Source: Falsiroseomonas tokyonensis (GTDB lineage: Bacteria > Pseudomonadota > Alphaproteobacteria > Acetobacterales > Acetobacteraceae). From it: a stretch of 64,000 nt of DNA. The stretch is taken from contig NZ_JAFNJS010000002.1 in assembly GCF_019024325.1 (NCBI RefSeq), positions 806,118 through 870,117 of the forward strand. The letters are read 5' to 3'. Made by a program: the position numbers and the translations under genes. Within the stretch, counting starts at the first letter, position 1. The number at the start of each line of letters is the position of its first letter. Positions 4,267 to 33,974 of the stretch are shown here, one piece after another. The notes under the pieces were generated by a model. That model did no database searches. It saw only the letters and a list, made by a program, of their open reading frames with translations, and was not told where the DNA came from.

Positions 4267-5235
4267 CTATTCGGGCTGCAGCCCGGTGGAGCGCACCAGT
4301 TCCTGCCACAGGGCGCGCTGGGTCCGCATCAGCGCCAGGAATGCCTCGGGCGTCGAGGGATAGGGCGCATTGCCGTTGGCGGCTAGGCGCTCGATCATCT
4401 GCGGCTTCTTCAGCCCCTCATTGATGGCGGCATTCATGCGCGCGACGATCGGCTCCGGAATTCCCTTCGGGCCCATCACGGCCGAGAAGCTCGGCAGGTC
4501 GTAGTTCGGCACGCCCTGTTCCTGCACGGTGGGGAATTCCGGGGCCAGCGGCCAGCGCGTGGGATTGGTCACCGCCAGCGCGCGGATCTGGCCGGCCCGC
4601 ACCGCGCCGATGACGCCGGAATAGCTGTCGAAGACCACCTGGATATTGCCCGCAATCAGATCCGCCAGCGCCGGCGCGGCGCCACGATAGGGCACATGGG
4701 TCAGCTCCGTCCCGGTGCGCTGCATGAACAGCACGCCCAGCATGTGGTTGGCGCCGCCGGCACCGGCGGAGCCGTAGTTCAGCTTGCCCGGATTGGCCTT
4801 CGCATGGGCCACCAGCTCCTGGATATTGGTCACCGGCAATGCGTTGTTGACGCAGACCATGGCGGTGCCGGTGGCGAAGGTGGCGATGCAGGTGAAGTCC
4901 TCCACCCCCTCATAGCCCGGCGTCTTGAACAGCAGCGGCGCGCCGAGGTGGGAGGAGGGGCTGGCCATCATCACCGTGTAGCCATCGGGCGCGGATTGGG
5001 CGACATGCGCCGTGCCGATGGTGCCGCCGGCGCCGGCGCGGTTGTCCACCACCACCTGCACGCCCAGCCCCTCGGCCAGCGCCTGCGCCTGCAGCCGCCC
5101 GGCAATGTCGCTGGCGCCGCCGGGTGGGTAGGGGACCACCAGGCGAATGGGCCGGGCGGGCCAGGGCGCCTGGGCGAGGGCAGGGGCGGCGAGCAGGCCT
5201 GCGGCGATGGCGGGCAGGTGGCGACGGCGCAGCAT
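4267..5235 (-). CDS. Bug-family (TTT) periplasmic solute-binding protein
   Basis: 322 residues with an N-terminal signal peptide (MLRRRHLP...ALA-QA). The mature start WPARPIRLVVPYPPGG and the DGYTVMMAS loop are hallmarks of Bug/TctC-type periplasmic receptors, which bind carboxylates or amides. The start has GGAG seven bases upstream. No TctA/TctB membrane partners are nearby, so this is an orphan receptor. It lies 64 bases downstream of the gamma-glutamyltransferase gene in the same direction, so a gamma-glutamyl compound or its product is a reasonable ligand guess. Confidence 0.9.
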   Translation of the reverse strand: MLRRRHLPAIAAGLLAAPALAQAPWPARPIRLVVPYPPGGASDIAGRLQAQALAEGLGVQVVVDNRAGAGGTIGTAHVAQSAPDGYTVMMASPSSHLGAPLLFKTPGYEGVEDFTCIATFATGTAMVCVNNALPVTNIQELVAHAKANPGKLNYGSAGAGGANHMLGVLFMQRTGTELTHVPYRGAAPALADLIAGNIQVVFDSYSGVIGAVRAGQIRALAVTNPTRWPLAPEFPTVQEQGVPNYDLPSFSAVMGPKGIPEPIVARMNAAINEGLKKPQMIERLAANGNAPYPSTPEAFLALMRTQRALWQELVRSTGLQPE

Positions 5236-5299
5236 CAGGCGACTCCGGAGGGGAAATGATCCGCCCAGTTGGATGCAACTTCGCCGCGGACCGCAAGCC

Positions 5300-7087
5300 C
5301 TATCGCCCGACGGCGTAGCCCTGCATGCCGCGCGGATTGGCGCCGGCGAAAAGCTGGCCGTCCACCTCCTGCCGCGCGGCGCTGAGGCGCCCCTCGGACC
5401 AGTCGCCGCCGGTATCCACCTGGTGGCCGCGGGCGGTCAGCATGCGGGCGACCTCCGGCGCATAGCGGCCTTCCAGCACCACCTTGCCGGGGCGGGCGAC
5501 GCGCGGCCAGAAGCTGCTGGGCCAGTGTTCCGTGTGGAAGGCGGGCGCATCGATGGCCTGCTGGATGTTCAGGCCGAAATCCACCATGCGGGACAGCATG
5601 ATGGGCTGCCACTGGTCCTGCTGCTCCCCACCCGGCGTGCCGAAGCTCATCCAGGGGCGGCCCTCCTTCAGCACCATGGCCGGGGACAGGGTGGTGCGCG
5701 GCCGCTTGCCCGGCTTCAGCCCGTTCGGCAGGTTCTCGTCCAGCCAGAACATCTGCCCGCGCGTGCCGAGGCAGAAACCCAGCCCCGGCACGGCCGGGGA
5801 GGACTGGAACCAGCCGCCCGACGGCGTGGCGGAGACCATGTTGCCCTGGGCGTCGATGACATCGATGTGGCAGGTATCCGCGCCCGAAACGCCGAGGCGC
5901 GCCACCGTGGGCTCGCCGGCGCCCGGCGCGCGGGTCAGCATCTCGATCCGGCTGGCGGCGTCGTGGTCCACCCAGGGGGTGGCGAGGCCGGGCAGGGTGC
6001 CGGGGCGGAGATCCAGGCTCGCGGCCTCACCCACCAGCTTGCGGCGCTCGGCGGCGTATTCGTCGGACAGCAGGTGGTGGATCGGCACATCGACGAAATC
6101 GGGGTCGCCGTAGAAGGCCTCGCGATCGGCGAAGGCGAGCTTCATGCATTCCACTACGGTATGGACGAACTGCTCGCCCAGCGGGTCCATGGCGCCGATA
6201 TCGAAGCCTTCCAGCAGCGCGAGGGTCTGCAGCATGGCCGGGCCCTGGCTCCAGACGCCGCATTTCAGCACGGTATGGCCGCGATAGTCGCGCCGCAGCG
6301 GGGCCTCCGTGCTGGCGCGCCAGTGGGACATGTCCTGCGCCGTCAGCACGCCCTTGTGGCGCTGGCCGGAGGCATCGAGCAGCGCGTCACGCGCGAAGAA
6401 CTCCCCGATCGCCTCGGCGACGAAGCCGCCATACCAGGCATTCCGCGCCGCCTCGATCTGCGCCACGCGGTCATGGCCCGCCGCCTCTGCCTCCCGCAGC
6501 ACCCGCTCCCATGTCAGCGCCAGGGTGGGGTTGGCGTAGAGGCCGCCGGCGACCGGGCCGCCGTTCTTCAGCCAGATCTCGGCGGAGGTCGGCCATTCGG
6601 ATTCGAACAGCGGCTTCACCGTGTTCAGCGTGGCGACCACGCGGGGCACGTAGTGGATGCCGCGATGGGCGTAGCCGATGGCGTAGGACAGCACGTCGCG
6701 CAGCGACCAGGTGCCGTAGTCGCGCAGCATCAGCGCCCAAGCATCGAAGGCGCCGGGCACCATGGCGGGCAGGAAGCCGGTGCCGGGGATCAGGTCGAGG
6801 CCGAGTTCGCCCTTCACATGGGCGACGGTGAGCCCCGCCGGTGCCACGCCCTGGCCGCAGATCACGCGCTGCGCGCCGGCCTTGGCGTCGTGGATGATGA
6901 TGGGGCAGTCGCCGCCCGGCCCGTTCAGATGCGGCTCCGCCACCTGCAGGGTGAAGCCGGCGGCCACCGCGGCGTCGAAGGCGTTGCCCCCCCTTTCCAG
7001 CACCGCCATGCCGACCTGGGATGCGATCCAGTGGGTGGAAGCGACGACGCCAAAGGTGCCGGCGATTTCGGGGCGCGTTGTGAACAT
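5300..7087 (-). CDS. Gamma-glutamyltransferase family protein
   Basis: 595 residues of the Ntn-hydrolase gamma-glutamyltranspeptidase family, which cleaves gamma-glutamyl amides such as glutathione, or cephalosporin acyl chains. The N-terminal GGNAFDAAVAAGFTLQV and NGPGGDC motifs are present. The autoprocessing threonine is Thr405 in the ADTCHIDVID segment (normally TTH), giving a small subunit of about 190 residues. No signal peptide is visible, so it may be cytoplasmic and specialised, like other GGT-like hydrolases. Start chosen at the ATG at 7087; the frame stays open further upstream but that part does not resemble the family. First gene of a minus-strand group with the Bug receptor. Confidence 0.9.
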   Translation of the reverse strand: MFTTRPEIAGTFGVVASTHWIASQVGMAVLERGGNAFDAAVAAGFTLQVAEPHLNGPGGDCPIIIHDAKAGAQRVICGQGVAPAGLTVAHVKGELGLDLIPGTGFLPAMVPGAFDAWALMLRDYGTWSLRDVLSYAIGYAHRGIHYVPRVVATLNTVKPLFESEWPTSAEIWLKNGGPVAGGLYANPTLALTWERVLREAEAAGHDRVAQIEAARNAWYGGFVAEAIGEFFARDALLDASGQRHKGVLTAQDMSHWRASTEAPLRRDYRGHTVLKCGVWSQGPAMLQTLALLEGFDIGAMDPLGEQFVHTVVECMKLAFADREAFYGDPDFVDVPIHHLLSDEYAAERRKLVGEAASLDLRPGTLPGLATPWVDHDAASRIEMLTRAPGAGEPTVARLGVSGADTCHIDVIDAQGNMVSATPSGGWFQSSPAVPGLGFCLGTRGQMFWLDENLPNGLKPGKRPRTTLSPAMVLKEGRPWMSFGTPGGEQQDQWQPIMLSRMVDFGLNIQQAIDAPAFHTEHWPSSFWPRVARPGKVVLEGRYAPEVARMLTARGHQVDTGGDWSEGRLSAARQEVDGQLFAGANPRGMQGYAVGR

Positions 7088-31114: not shown

Positions 31115-32113
31115 CTATTGCACCAGGATGTTGCCCTGCTGGACCACCTGGCGCCAGCGGGCCAGCTCCGCCGTCACCAGCGCGGCATATTCGGCGGAGG
31201 GCACGGGCCGCGGCTGGGTGCCGCGCTCCGCCAGCTGCGCCTGCATGGCGGGGTCGGACAGCGCGGAGCGGGCGGCATCCCCCATCCGCTGCACCACGGC
31301 ATCGGAGGCGCTGCGATGGGTATGCAGGCCGAACCAGGCCTCGGCGGAGAAGCCCACCAGGTTGAACTCCGCCCCCAGCTCCGCCAGCGCCGGGACATCC
31401 GGCAGTTCCGGCAGGCGGACGGCGGAGGTGACGGCCAGGGGCAGGACGGTGCCGGCGCGGATCTGCGGCAGGGCGGTGGGCAGGTTGTCGATGAAGGTAT
31501 CGACCTCGCCGCCCATCACCGCCACCATGCCGGGCCCGGCGCCGCGATAGGGCACGTGCTGCAGCCCGGCGCCGGTCTGCTGGTTGATCAGCTCCCCGGT
31601 CAGATGGGTGGAGGTGCCATTGCCGGCGGAGGCGAAGTTGCGCATCCCGGGCCGCGCCTTGGCATCGCGCAGGAAGGCCCGCACGTCGCCGCCCGGCACC
31701 TTGCCCGGATTGGCGACCCAGACATTCGGCACCGTCACCATCAGCGTCAGGGCGCGGAAATCGGTCTCCGCATTGTAGGTCAGGTTGCGGTAGAGCGCGG
31801 GGGCGATGCCGTGGGAGGCGATCTGCGAGACGAACATCGCATGGTCGTCGCCTTCGCGGGCGAAGCGGCCGGCGGCGGTGGTGCTGCCAGCGCCGGGCTG
31901 GTTCTCCACCACCACGGCGCGGCCTAGCCGGTCGCGCATCGCCTGGGCGACCAGGCGGGCCACCACATCCGTGGTGCCGCCGGGCGGGAAGGGGACGATC
32001 ATGCGCAGGTCGCGATTGGGCCAGGCGGCCTGCGCCAAGGCGGGGGCGGCCAGCGCGGCGGCGCCGGCCGCCAGCAGGCCGCGGCGGCCCAGTTCTGCTT
32101 TTGTCATTCCCAT
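31115..32113 (-). CDS. Bug-family (TTT) periplasmic solute-binding protein
   Basis: About 332 residues. Leader with GRRGLLAAGAAALAAPALA, mature WPNRDLRMIVPFPPGGTTDV. ATGs at 32113 and 32107 both lie after GGGAG; I use 32113. The usual DGYT loop is replaced by EGDDHAMFVS, an unusual feature that may reflect a different ligand. First gene of a run with the two CMD-fold proteins, divergent from the nitrile hydratase fusion. Confidence 0.88.
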   Translation of the reverse strand: MGMTKAELGRRGLLAAGAAALAAPALAQAAWPNRDLRMIVPFPPGGTTDVVARLVAQAMRDRLGRAVVVENQPGAGSTTAAGRFAREGDDHAMFVSQIASHGIAPALYRNLTYNAETDFRALTLMVTVPNVWVANPGKVPGGDVRAFLRDAKARPGMRNFASAGNGTSTHLTGELINQQTGAGLQHVPYRGAGPGMVAVMGGEVDTFIDNLPTALPQIRAGTVLPLAVTSAVRLPELPDVPALAELGAEFNLVGFSAEAWFGLHTHRSASDAVVQRMGDAARSALSDPAMQAQLAERGTQPRPVPSAEYAALVTAELARWRQVVQQGNILVQ

Positions 32114-32223
32114 CGGTCTCCCGGTTGTTTTCCCGACCTTCGCCAATGATCGTCGCCCTGTCGAGGCTTCCGATGCCGCTGGGGTCCGATTAGCGTACCG
32201 GCTGCATTCCAGAGGACCGGCCG

Positions 32224-33222
32224 ATGACCGACCTGCCCCCCAACCATCCGCCCCATGACGCCGGCGGCCGCTTCGACGGCCCCGTGATCCGCGCGGAGCA
32301 CGAGGCCGCGCATTGGGAGAAGGAGGCGGATGCGATCCGCATGCTGCTGTCCGACGCGAAGCGCCGGCTTTTCACCACCGATGAAAGCCGGCGGGTGCAG
32401 GAACAGCTGGACGACGCGACCTATTGGGCCATGCCCTATTACGAGCGCTGGATCCTGGCCTTCTCCAGCCTGATGATTTCGAAGGGCGTGGTGCCGGAGG
32501 CCGAGCTGCTGGCCGAGGAGGCGCGGCTGCGCGAAGCGGAGCTGGATGTGGTGGAGGATCATCACAACCACCATGACGATCACGGCCATGATCACGATCA
32601 TGACCACGACCACGACCATGAGCATCACCCGTATCAGGAAGATCACGACGCGGCGGAGGAACGGCTCTCGCCGCTACGCCTGCGGGGCGTTGCCATGCGC
32701 AACCTGCTGCTGGCCAAGGGCGTGCTGACCGCCGCCGAGATCCGGGAGGAAATCGCGCGCATGGATGCGCGCAGCCCGCATAACGGCGCCGCGATCGTCG
32801 CACGCGCCTGGACCGACCCGGCCTATGCACAGCGACTGGAAGCGGATGCCGTGGCGGCGGCGGCGGAGCTCGGCCTGGATGCGGCGGGCACCAAGCTGGC
32901 CGCGCTGTTCAACACGGCGACGCGGCACCACCTGGTGGTGTGCACGCTGTGCTCCTGCTACCCGCGCAGCATCCTCGGCCGCCCGCCCGCCTGGTACAAA
33001 TCCCGCGCCTATCGCGCGCGCGCGGTGCGTGATCCGCGCGGCATTCTCGCCGAATTCGGCACCAGCCTGCCGCCGCGGGTGGAGCTGCGCGTGCACGACA
33101 GCAATGCGGAGCTGCGCTACCTGGTGGTGCCGCAGCGCCCCGCCGGCACCGAGGGCTGGGATGAGGCCCGGCTGGCGGGGCTGGTGACGCGCGACGGCAT
33201 GATCGGCGTCACCACGCTGTAG
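32224..33222 (+). CDS. Nitrile hydratase/thiocyanate hydrolase-type fusion: beta N-half, His-rich linker, alpha subunit
   Basis: 332 residues. Residues about 30-105 match the N-terminal helical half of nitrile hydratase beta (DATYWAMPYYERWILAFSSL, KGVVPEAEL). Residues 113-135 are a linker with 13 histidines in alternating His-Asp. Residues about 150-332 are a complete alpha subunit, with SPHNGAAIVARAW, the metal claw Cys240-Thr-Leu-Cys243-Ser-Cys245, and GRPPAWYKSRAYRARAVRDP. The CTLCSC form is that of cobalt enzymes. The SH3-like C-terminal half of beta and any activator gene are absent from the window. It is therefore like thiocyanate hydrolase alpha plus gamma fused. Hydrates nitriles, or hydrolyses thiocyanate. 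Confidence 0.85.
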   Translation: MTDLPPNHPPHDAGGRFDGPVIRAEHEAAHWEKEADAIRMLLSDAKRRLFTTDESRRVQEQLDDATYWAMPYYERWILAFSSLMISKGVVPEAELLAEEARLREAELDVVEDHHNHHDDHGHDHDHDHDHDHEHHPYQEDHDAAEERLSPLRLRGVAMRNLLLAKGVLTAAEIREEIARMDARSPHNGAAIVARAWTDPAYAQRLEADAVAAAAELGLDAAGTKLAALFNTATRHHLVVCTLCSCYPRSILGRPPAWYKSRAYRARAVRDPRGILAEFGTSLPPRVELRVHDSNAELRYLVVPQRPAGTEGWDEARLAGLVTRDGMIGVTTL

Positions 33223-33234
33223 GGGGCGGAGGCG

Positions 33235-33271
33235 AAGACCCCCTCTCCCATGAGAGGGGGAGGGGCTTTTC
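33235..33271. terminator. Bidirectional terminator, REP-like palindrome copy 6
   Basis: CCCCCTCTC-CCAT-GAGAGGGGG stem followed by AGGGGCTTTTCT. Lies between the convergent stops at 33222 and 33273. The T run on the plus strand fits intrinsic termination of the nitrile hydratase fusion gene. Sequence resembles the dispersed palindromes elsewhere in the window. Confidence 0.75.
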
Positions 33272-33272
33272 T

Positions 33273-33974
33273 CTACTCCGCCGCGCGCGCCATGCCGAAG
33301 CGCGCGTTCAGCTCGCGCTCGACATAGTCGAGGCTTTCGACATCGGCGAACTTCATGTCGAGGTCGAAGAGATTGGCGCGATGCGCGGAGGGGCTGCGAT
33401 CGCCGCAGGCTTCCTCCACCAGCACGGTGCGGAAATTGTGGCTGAAGGCGTCCATGGCACCGGCCCGCACGCAGCCGCTGGTGGAGACGCCGCAGATGAT
33501 GACGGTGTCCACCTCGTCGTAGCGCAGGAAGGCCTCCAGTGGCGTCGCGAAGAAGCAGGAGGGCTTGTTCTTCATCACGACGCGATCGGCCTCGCGCGGC
33601 GCATAGGCTTCCGGCCATTCATCGGCGCGCGGGTCGCGGCTGTACTGGTGGTCGTTCGCGGTGCCGAGCTTCAGGTTCCACAAGCCGCGATAGCTTGGGT
33701 GCCGGCGGTCGTCGCGGCGGCTGTAGTAGATCGGCAGGTCGAGGCGGCGGAACAGCGCGGTCAGCCGCGTCAGCGCCGCGATCAGCGCCGGATCCTCCCG
33801 CCCGCATTGCGAATAGGCGGGGTCGACGAACATGTAGGTGGTGTCGATGTTCAGCAAAGCGGGGCGGCGGCCGATGCCGATGCGCCGCGCGAAGCCGCCC
33901 TTGCGATAGGTCTCCAGCTCCTCATCCGGCACGAAGCCGCGCCATTTCGCCAGCTTCTCGAGGTCTTCGGTCAT
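33273..33974 (-). CDS. Isochorismatase-family cysteine hydrolase, N-carbamoylsarcosine-amidase-like
   Basis: 233 residues. Catalytic triad Asp44 (LLNIDTTYMFVD), Lys135 (VMKNKPSCFF) and Cys168 (GVSTSGCVRAGAMDA) is complete. The C-terminal length and the DAFSHNFRTVLVEEACGDRS segment favour amidases that release ammonia from N-carbamoyl or nicotinamide-type substrates. Convergent with the nitrile hydratase fusion, so the pair could act on a nitrile, then an amide, but they are not in one operon. Confidence 0.88.
   Translation of the reverse strand: MTEDLEKLAKWRGFVPDEELETYRKGGFARRIGIGRRPALLNIDTTYMFVDPAYSQCGREDPALIAALTRLTALFRRLDLPIYYSRRDDRRHPSYRGLWNLKLGTANDHQYSRDPRADEWPEAYAPREADRVVMKNKPSCFFATPLEAFLRYDEVDTVIICGVSTSGCVRAGAMDAFSHNFRTVLVEEACGDRSPSAHRANLFDLDMKFADVESLDYVERELNARFGMARAAE

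Follow-up and report, generated by a model that had tools for sequence, protein, structure and literature searches.

Among the closest described systems is the three-subunit nitrile hydratase (NHase) AnhDEA of Streptomyces canus, in which the N-terminal half of beta (hereafter the N-half), AnhD, is described as a cobalt/swapping chaperone and AnhD2A as the loaded complex (PMC7329996). Tables 2 and 3 of that paper give 0.2–2% of full activity for AnhD plus AnhA without AnhE—the counterpart of the SH3-like C-terminal half of beta, hereafter SH3—though the pair is cobalt-loaded, up to 4.2% for AnhEA without AnhD, and none for AnhA alone. The same source reports that holo-AnhDA activates apo-AnhDEA and cites Nelp 2014 for ToyJ, an alpha subunit of S. 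rimosus reported active and sufficient alone. For fused NHases, alpha(P14K)2 is described as passing cobalt to them in vitro, and even a P. putida enzyme engineered as a beta-alpha fusion is described as requiring P14K (PMC4709657). In Monosiga, metal is reported to be incorporated without need of the (His)17 linker (PMC7193024, citing Yang 2018), and a 2012 survey gave beta-alpha fusions as absent from prokaryotic data (PMC3323583). How cobalt enters NHases and what each half of beta does are still being worked out.

The window—the whole stretch of DNA analyzed, 64,000 nucleotides long—carries a bacterial fusion of an N-half with alpha and no SH3, an arrangement for which open-literature titles and abstracts on NHase and thiocyanate hydrolase (SCNase), with subscription journals mostly outside that coverage, yielded no match. 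Its protein aligns with 32 loci of other genomes at 49–91% identity (alignment A1: 33 rows, the window and the 32 loci, of which L006 and L034 lack starts at contig ends). The metal-binding claw of NHase alpha reads CXLCSC, with Thr at X in the Co-type. The features of the locus are as follows.

31115-32146, divergent from the fused gene: TctC receptor gene, upstream of it
32211..32216, + strand: AGAGGA, probable ribosome-binding site, read from the sequence
32224..33222, + strand: fused gene, ATG start, 332 aa, beta-N half plus His/Asp linker plus alpha
32251..32541, + strand: NHase_beta_N domain, residues 10-106, AnhD/SCNase-beta-like (Pfam 65.4 bits; 2dd4_B, E 1.8e-9)
32389..32391, + strand: Arg56 codon, opposite beta-Arg56 of Fe-type NHase (2ahj_B alignment; invariant in A1)
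32437..32439, + strand: Tyr72 codon, opposite beta-Tyr72 of Fe-type NHase (2ahj_B alignment; invariant in A1)
32560..32628, + strand: His/Asp linker, residues 113-135, 13 His (translation; model pLDDT <50 over 112-143)
32680..33213, + strand: NHase_alpha domain, residues 153-330 (Pfam 252.3 bits; Foldseek to 1ire_A and 3qxe_A)
32941..32958, + strand: CTLCSC claw, residues 240-245, Co-type motif (sequence and A1 alignment)
33273-33974, convergent with the fused gene: isochorismatase-like gene, downstream of it

Both domains lie well above their Pfam cut-offs (21.5 bits for NHase_beta_N; 27.2 bits for NHase_alpha, PF02979), with no further Pfam domain between them, and NHase_beta_C (PF02211) finds no match in the 332-residue protein. 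An earlier note, made from the letters alone, had described one gene joining beta-N to alpha through a His/Asp linker and lacking the SH3-like C-half; the Pfam domains and the 13 His in residues 113–135 bear this out. Its claim of a cobalt-type claw also stands: the alpha half combines 252.3 bits on PF02979 with CTLCSC at residues 240–245. Equivalents of beta-Arg56 and beta-Tyr72 are present in the N-half in all 33 rows of A1. The structure model of the monomer (pLDDT 79.9, pTM 0.74) shows two domains around a low-confidence stretch at 112–143, and Foldseek matches it to Co-type NHase alpha chains and, weakly, to beta N-halves (E about 0.01).

Linker His persist in all 32 loci: the richest 30-residue stretch holds 5 to 13 of them, with L035 and L036 having the fewest. 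The claw is likewise intact throughout, as CTLCSC in 30/32 and as CSLCSC in L035 and L036. Because so many loci elsewhere align and share both traits, the fused gene is no chance product; by these alignments it is a conserved family in Roseomonads. Its N-half and alpha are under purifying selection, with dN/dS against the window of 0.17–0.42 across 10 Roseomonad loci and 0.41–0.58 for the distant L035. With one SH3 query, blastp detected no SH3 near the fused loci L006–L036, L039, and L040, in flanks of up to 6 kb that were shorter or one-sided at contig ends. At L040 (4834-6958), the fused gene lies in two frames, with the break within alpha (a frameshift or an assembly error). No plasmid copy emerged: of 178 matching plasmid records, 0 match the query over 80% of its length at a single place.

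The window gene stands alone. Its five scanned neighbors comprise two TctC receptors, a CMD protein, one protein of no family, and the isochorismatase-like hydrolase, with no amidase directly beside the fusion among them. Relatives differ in this respect: In 4/4 loci examined of one group (G158, G209, G078, and G230), the fusion is followed by a same-strand amidase (PF01425). Amidase genes also lie near the L024 fusion, on the same strand but not adjacent, and near that of L016, on the opposite strand. An amidase after the fusion suits a route from nitrile through amide to acid. Between the window's convergent genes, 33240-33275 reads CCCCTCTCCC-ATGA-GAGGGGGAGGGG and then CTTTTC, a possible shared terminator.

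The earlier note had proposed that the linker might load cobalt itself and so replace the activator. Unfused alphas point elsewhere: 40/60 carry at least 4 His in the tail at their start, 2/60 carry 3, and 18/60 carry 0–1, in a count that takes the most favorable Met start where several are possible and so may run high, and that leaves out fused loci, repeats of own loci, L040, and the contig-end-cut L049 and L096. A His-rich tail is also present on the P. putida alpha (3qxe_A alignment), a tailed type that still needs P14K; the 3qxe strain may differ from the P. putida strain of PMC4709657. Since such a tail is common on unfused alphas and agrees with the linker in position and composition, the fusion linker is most simply that tail, and a new invention replacing the activator was rejected as first choice. 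The linker thus probably does not replace the activator; it may still help gather metal. As a built-in activator, the N-half is the more likely candidate, given that AnhD of S. canus is a cobalt/swapping chaperone. An origin of the linker by chance or slippage was also rejected, because the His/Asp residues are retained even though synonymous sites approach saturation (pN 0.06–0.20 and pS 0.5–1.2 over the 10 Roseomonad loci compared, values to be read with the caution that protein alignment of a repeat favors His on His).

The 18 alphas with 0–1 tail His (17 distinct sequences) are all 18 rows of one Roseomonad three-gene clade: L002, L068, L071, L072, L074, L079–L081, L084, L085, and L102–L109. 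A causal link from fusion to tail loss in the three-gene alpha was unsupported, as G158, G209, G322, and G230 have both fusion and tail. The Neoroseomonas loci L071, L072, L074, and L080 are tail-less, and no fused locus of those genomes stands among the best 80 of 148.

Beyond the fusion, a search of the window's own genome (G000) at E 0.001 finds a single alpha, a single N-half, and a single SH3, all on contig C57 as a three-gene N-SH3-alpha set. NHase_beta_C has its single genomic match there, and only there does the genome hold an SH3 with the Arg equivalent to beta-Arg141, missing from the fusion protein. The search that the earlier note had suggested for a separate beta C-half was therefore positive, in a full set on C57, and placed that gene outside the operon-like context of the fusion. 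The activator/accessory-protein model TIGR03889 had 0 matches over cut-off genome-wide, extending the note's statement that no activator is nearby. The genomic finding that the note had named as counting against its reading—an activator and a C-half together beside the fusion—was thus not seen: The C-half is on C57, and no activator was found. Nor does the window show the AnhDEA-type order of N, C-half, and alpha in one operon; it has the fused N and alpha only. With three-gene sets reading N-SH3-alpha and the fusion N-alpha, loss of the middle gene would be a simple relation between them.

The alpha tree requires at least two changes, with the Roseomonad fusions apart from those of G030 and G031 (L035, L036, L094, and L095), and an AU test of all fusions as one clade gives p 0.0176. 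Both results stand against a single fusion origin, which was rejected, and the tree favors two. It covers the alpha domain only (39 fused, 54 three-gene-type, and 6 two-gene rows, without the fused row of the window itself), and its 35-row Roseomonad fusion clade has support 86/93, unstarred. Of 385 genomes sampled across the class, 141 match at 1e-30, and the full-span matches outside the family among the matches listed are G356, G487, G584, and G539; by coordinates, G356 is the genome of L036 and G487 that of L035. G539 carries at L112 (G539:C14) an adjacent but unfused N-half (5006-5332) and alpha (5336-5992), the latter with a His-rich start and with no SH3 between the two, and has a full three-gene set elsewhere (L113). 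The L112 pair is a possible unfused version, an intermediate of the fusion. G700 and G457, from the weaker class-sample matches, were considered as further unfused SH3-less pairs and rejected as ordinary, each having an SH3 match within the same cluster.

SH3 accompanies the fusion at genome level. PF02211 matches in 32/33 genomes reached through fused loci (one of the 33 being that of L040, with its gene in two frames) and in 14/14 fusion genomes of a 299-genome family sample. Merging by contig coordinates, where 7 of the 14 were already among the 33, gives 40 genomes, and G584 makes 41; SH3 is present in 40/41. The exception, G015, is a draft in which the second alpha ends 1 base from a contig end. 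Because 167/285 family-sample genomes that lack the fusion also have SH3, the excess depends on few lineages; it is suggestive, no proof. Each of the 33 genomes reached through loci has at least one further alpha. G030 (L035/L094) and G031 (L036/L095) each carry two different N-alpha fusions plus a separate alpha, with one SH3 match each.

In one genome, SH3 has outlived its own operon. G078, a single contig 98% complete, has the fusion as its only alpha over cut-off, and its old three-gene operon (L086, C1:201000-209500) survives as an amidase gene (PF01425), a truncated N gene cut after HDTGG, an intact SH3, and an alpha remnant consisting of a diverged 30-residue tail. This SH3 has 101 codons (L086 4157-4459; PF02211 65.6 bits) and starts at GTG, in a GTGA overlap with the shortened upstream frame. 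Compared with G158, identities by codon position are 0.85/0.95/0.62 over 96 codons of SH3, a coding pattern kept, and 0.57/0.80/0.70 over the 30 codons of the alpha remnant, a coding pattern lost; the same alpha stretch in the intact siblings G158 and G209 gives 0.90/0.90/0.63. The dN of the G078 SH3 is 0.110–0.121 vs. 0.044 between intact siblings (2.5–2.75x) at similar dS, and the claw of its fusion reads CMLCSC in place of CTLCSC. Retention of SH3 for the fusion would be the natural reading of these sequences, drawn from one genome and an alpha remnant of 30 codons.

The account we prefer, at about an even chance, is a covalent AnhD–AnhA NHase of Co-type, with the N-half acting as an integral cobalt chaperone and SH3 supplied in trans. 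Its observed basis is the domain anatomy, the retained claw, Arg56, and Tyr72, a locus without SH3, the presence of SH3 in nearly all fusion genomes, and the SH3 that outlived its operon. Function and the SH3 partnership we infer as follows. An AnhD-like N-half and an AnhA-like alpha would form one polypeptide, joined via alpha's His-rich tail. Cobalt would be loaded with help from the covalently held N-half, while the His/Asp stretch would do no more than concentrate metal. The polypeptide would then pair with an SH3 (AnhE-like) subunit from the separate three-gene set, which would supply the Arg opposite beta-Arg141, and the complex would hydrate nitrile to amide, for an amidase to cleave.

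A broader proposal, that SH3 was shed more than once and that one SH3 gene serves two hydratases per cell, we hold tentatively, at slightly under even weight. Against the preferred account stand the few independent lineages covered by the co-occurrence, the many non-fusion genomes with SH3, the faster SH3 evolution and CMLCSC claw of G078, and the window copy's lack of an adjacent amidase.

It is unlikely that the fused beta-N and alpha suffice alone and SH3 is dispensable. The fused loci examined have no adjoining SH3 gene, claw, Arg56, and Tyr72 are retained, and the reported sufficiency of ToyJ offers a precedent, but Table 2 of PMC7329996 shows S. canus AnhDA with almost no activity and AnhA alone with none, SH3 went undetected in just one fusion genome, the draft G015 with its second alpha running off the contig, and the intact G078 SH3 would be left unexplained.

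Less probable again is that the fusion is a covalent copy of AnhD2A, a cobalt-loading factor or metallochaperone for the three-gene enzyme and no catalyst. Activation of apo-AnhDEA by holo-AnhDA and cobalt transfer from alpha(P14K)2 would fit it, as would the further alpha in all 33 genomes reached through loci and the 18 tail-poor alpha rows (17 distinct) of one Roseomonad three-gene clade; yet G078 keeps the fusion without a client alpha over cut-off, an amidase follows the fusion in all four loci examined of one group, and 167 family genomes have SH3 but no fusion. Stoichiometry differs as well, 2:1 in AnhD2A and 1:1 in the fusion, and swapping of alpha is impossible for a fused chain.

Family models place the fusion near NHase and below every cut-off: 238.4 bits on NHase alpha (TIGR01323, cut-off 249.85), 54.3 on NHase beta (TIGR03888, 152.2), and 186.3 on SCNase gamma (TIGR03887, 291.45). 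Its N domain gives 13.6 bits on the accessory-protein (P14K-type) model TIGR03889 (cut-off 46); the domain scores as beta, not as accessory protein. Being nearer NHase than SCNase gamma, with both below equivalog cut-offs, the protein is treated under the working name of an NHase-like new architecture rather than as a filed family member. Among PDB chains the N-half is closest to SCNase beta (2dd4_B), and by sequence SCNase alpha (2dd4_A) is the counterpart of the SH3 half; the earlier note's label of an alpha-gamma-like fusion therefore gives way to beta+gamma-like. An SCNase-like enzyme instead of an NHase is very improbable: The partner set has the same three-way chain split and the N-half the same nearest PDB chain, but the NHase model gives alpha the higher score and the amidase neighbors of some relatives suit nitriles.

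Under the preferred account, the family is a natural separation of N-half and alpha from the C-half, with the proposed chaperone complex (N-half plus alpha) fixed in one chain. It offers a ready test of whether SH3 is needed for catalysis and sharable between enzymes, and an activator-free single-chain enzyme would serve amide production.

Set against S. canus AnhDEA as described in PMC7329996, the system has N-half, C-half, and alpha units in the same order and is likewise Co-type without a separate activator; here, however, a single chain holds N-half and alpha, and the locus lacks the C-half. The fusion thus resembles the AnhD2A complex in a single chain, at 1:1 rather than 2:1. By sequence, the Thiobacillus thioparus SCNase (2dd4) offers the same correspondence—N-half with beta, SH3 with alpha, catalytic part with gamma—whereas here beta and gamma are fused, alpha is absent, and the SCNase model cut-off is missed; that SCNase is also reported to have an activator gene (PMC7193024), while the fusion's genome has none over cut-off. 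Eukaryotic beta-alpha fusions (Monosiga and others; PMC2603476, PMC3323583) are described as likewise placing beta first with a His-rich stretch between, but both Monosiga subunits seem complete, with SH3 kept, whereas the window fusion is without the C-half. The engineered P. putida beta-alpha fusion (PMC4709657), also a single-chain NHase, differs according to its report in being artificial, containing the whole beta, and still needing P14K.
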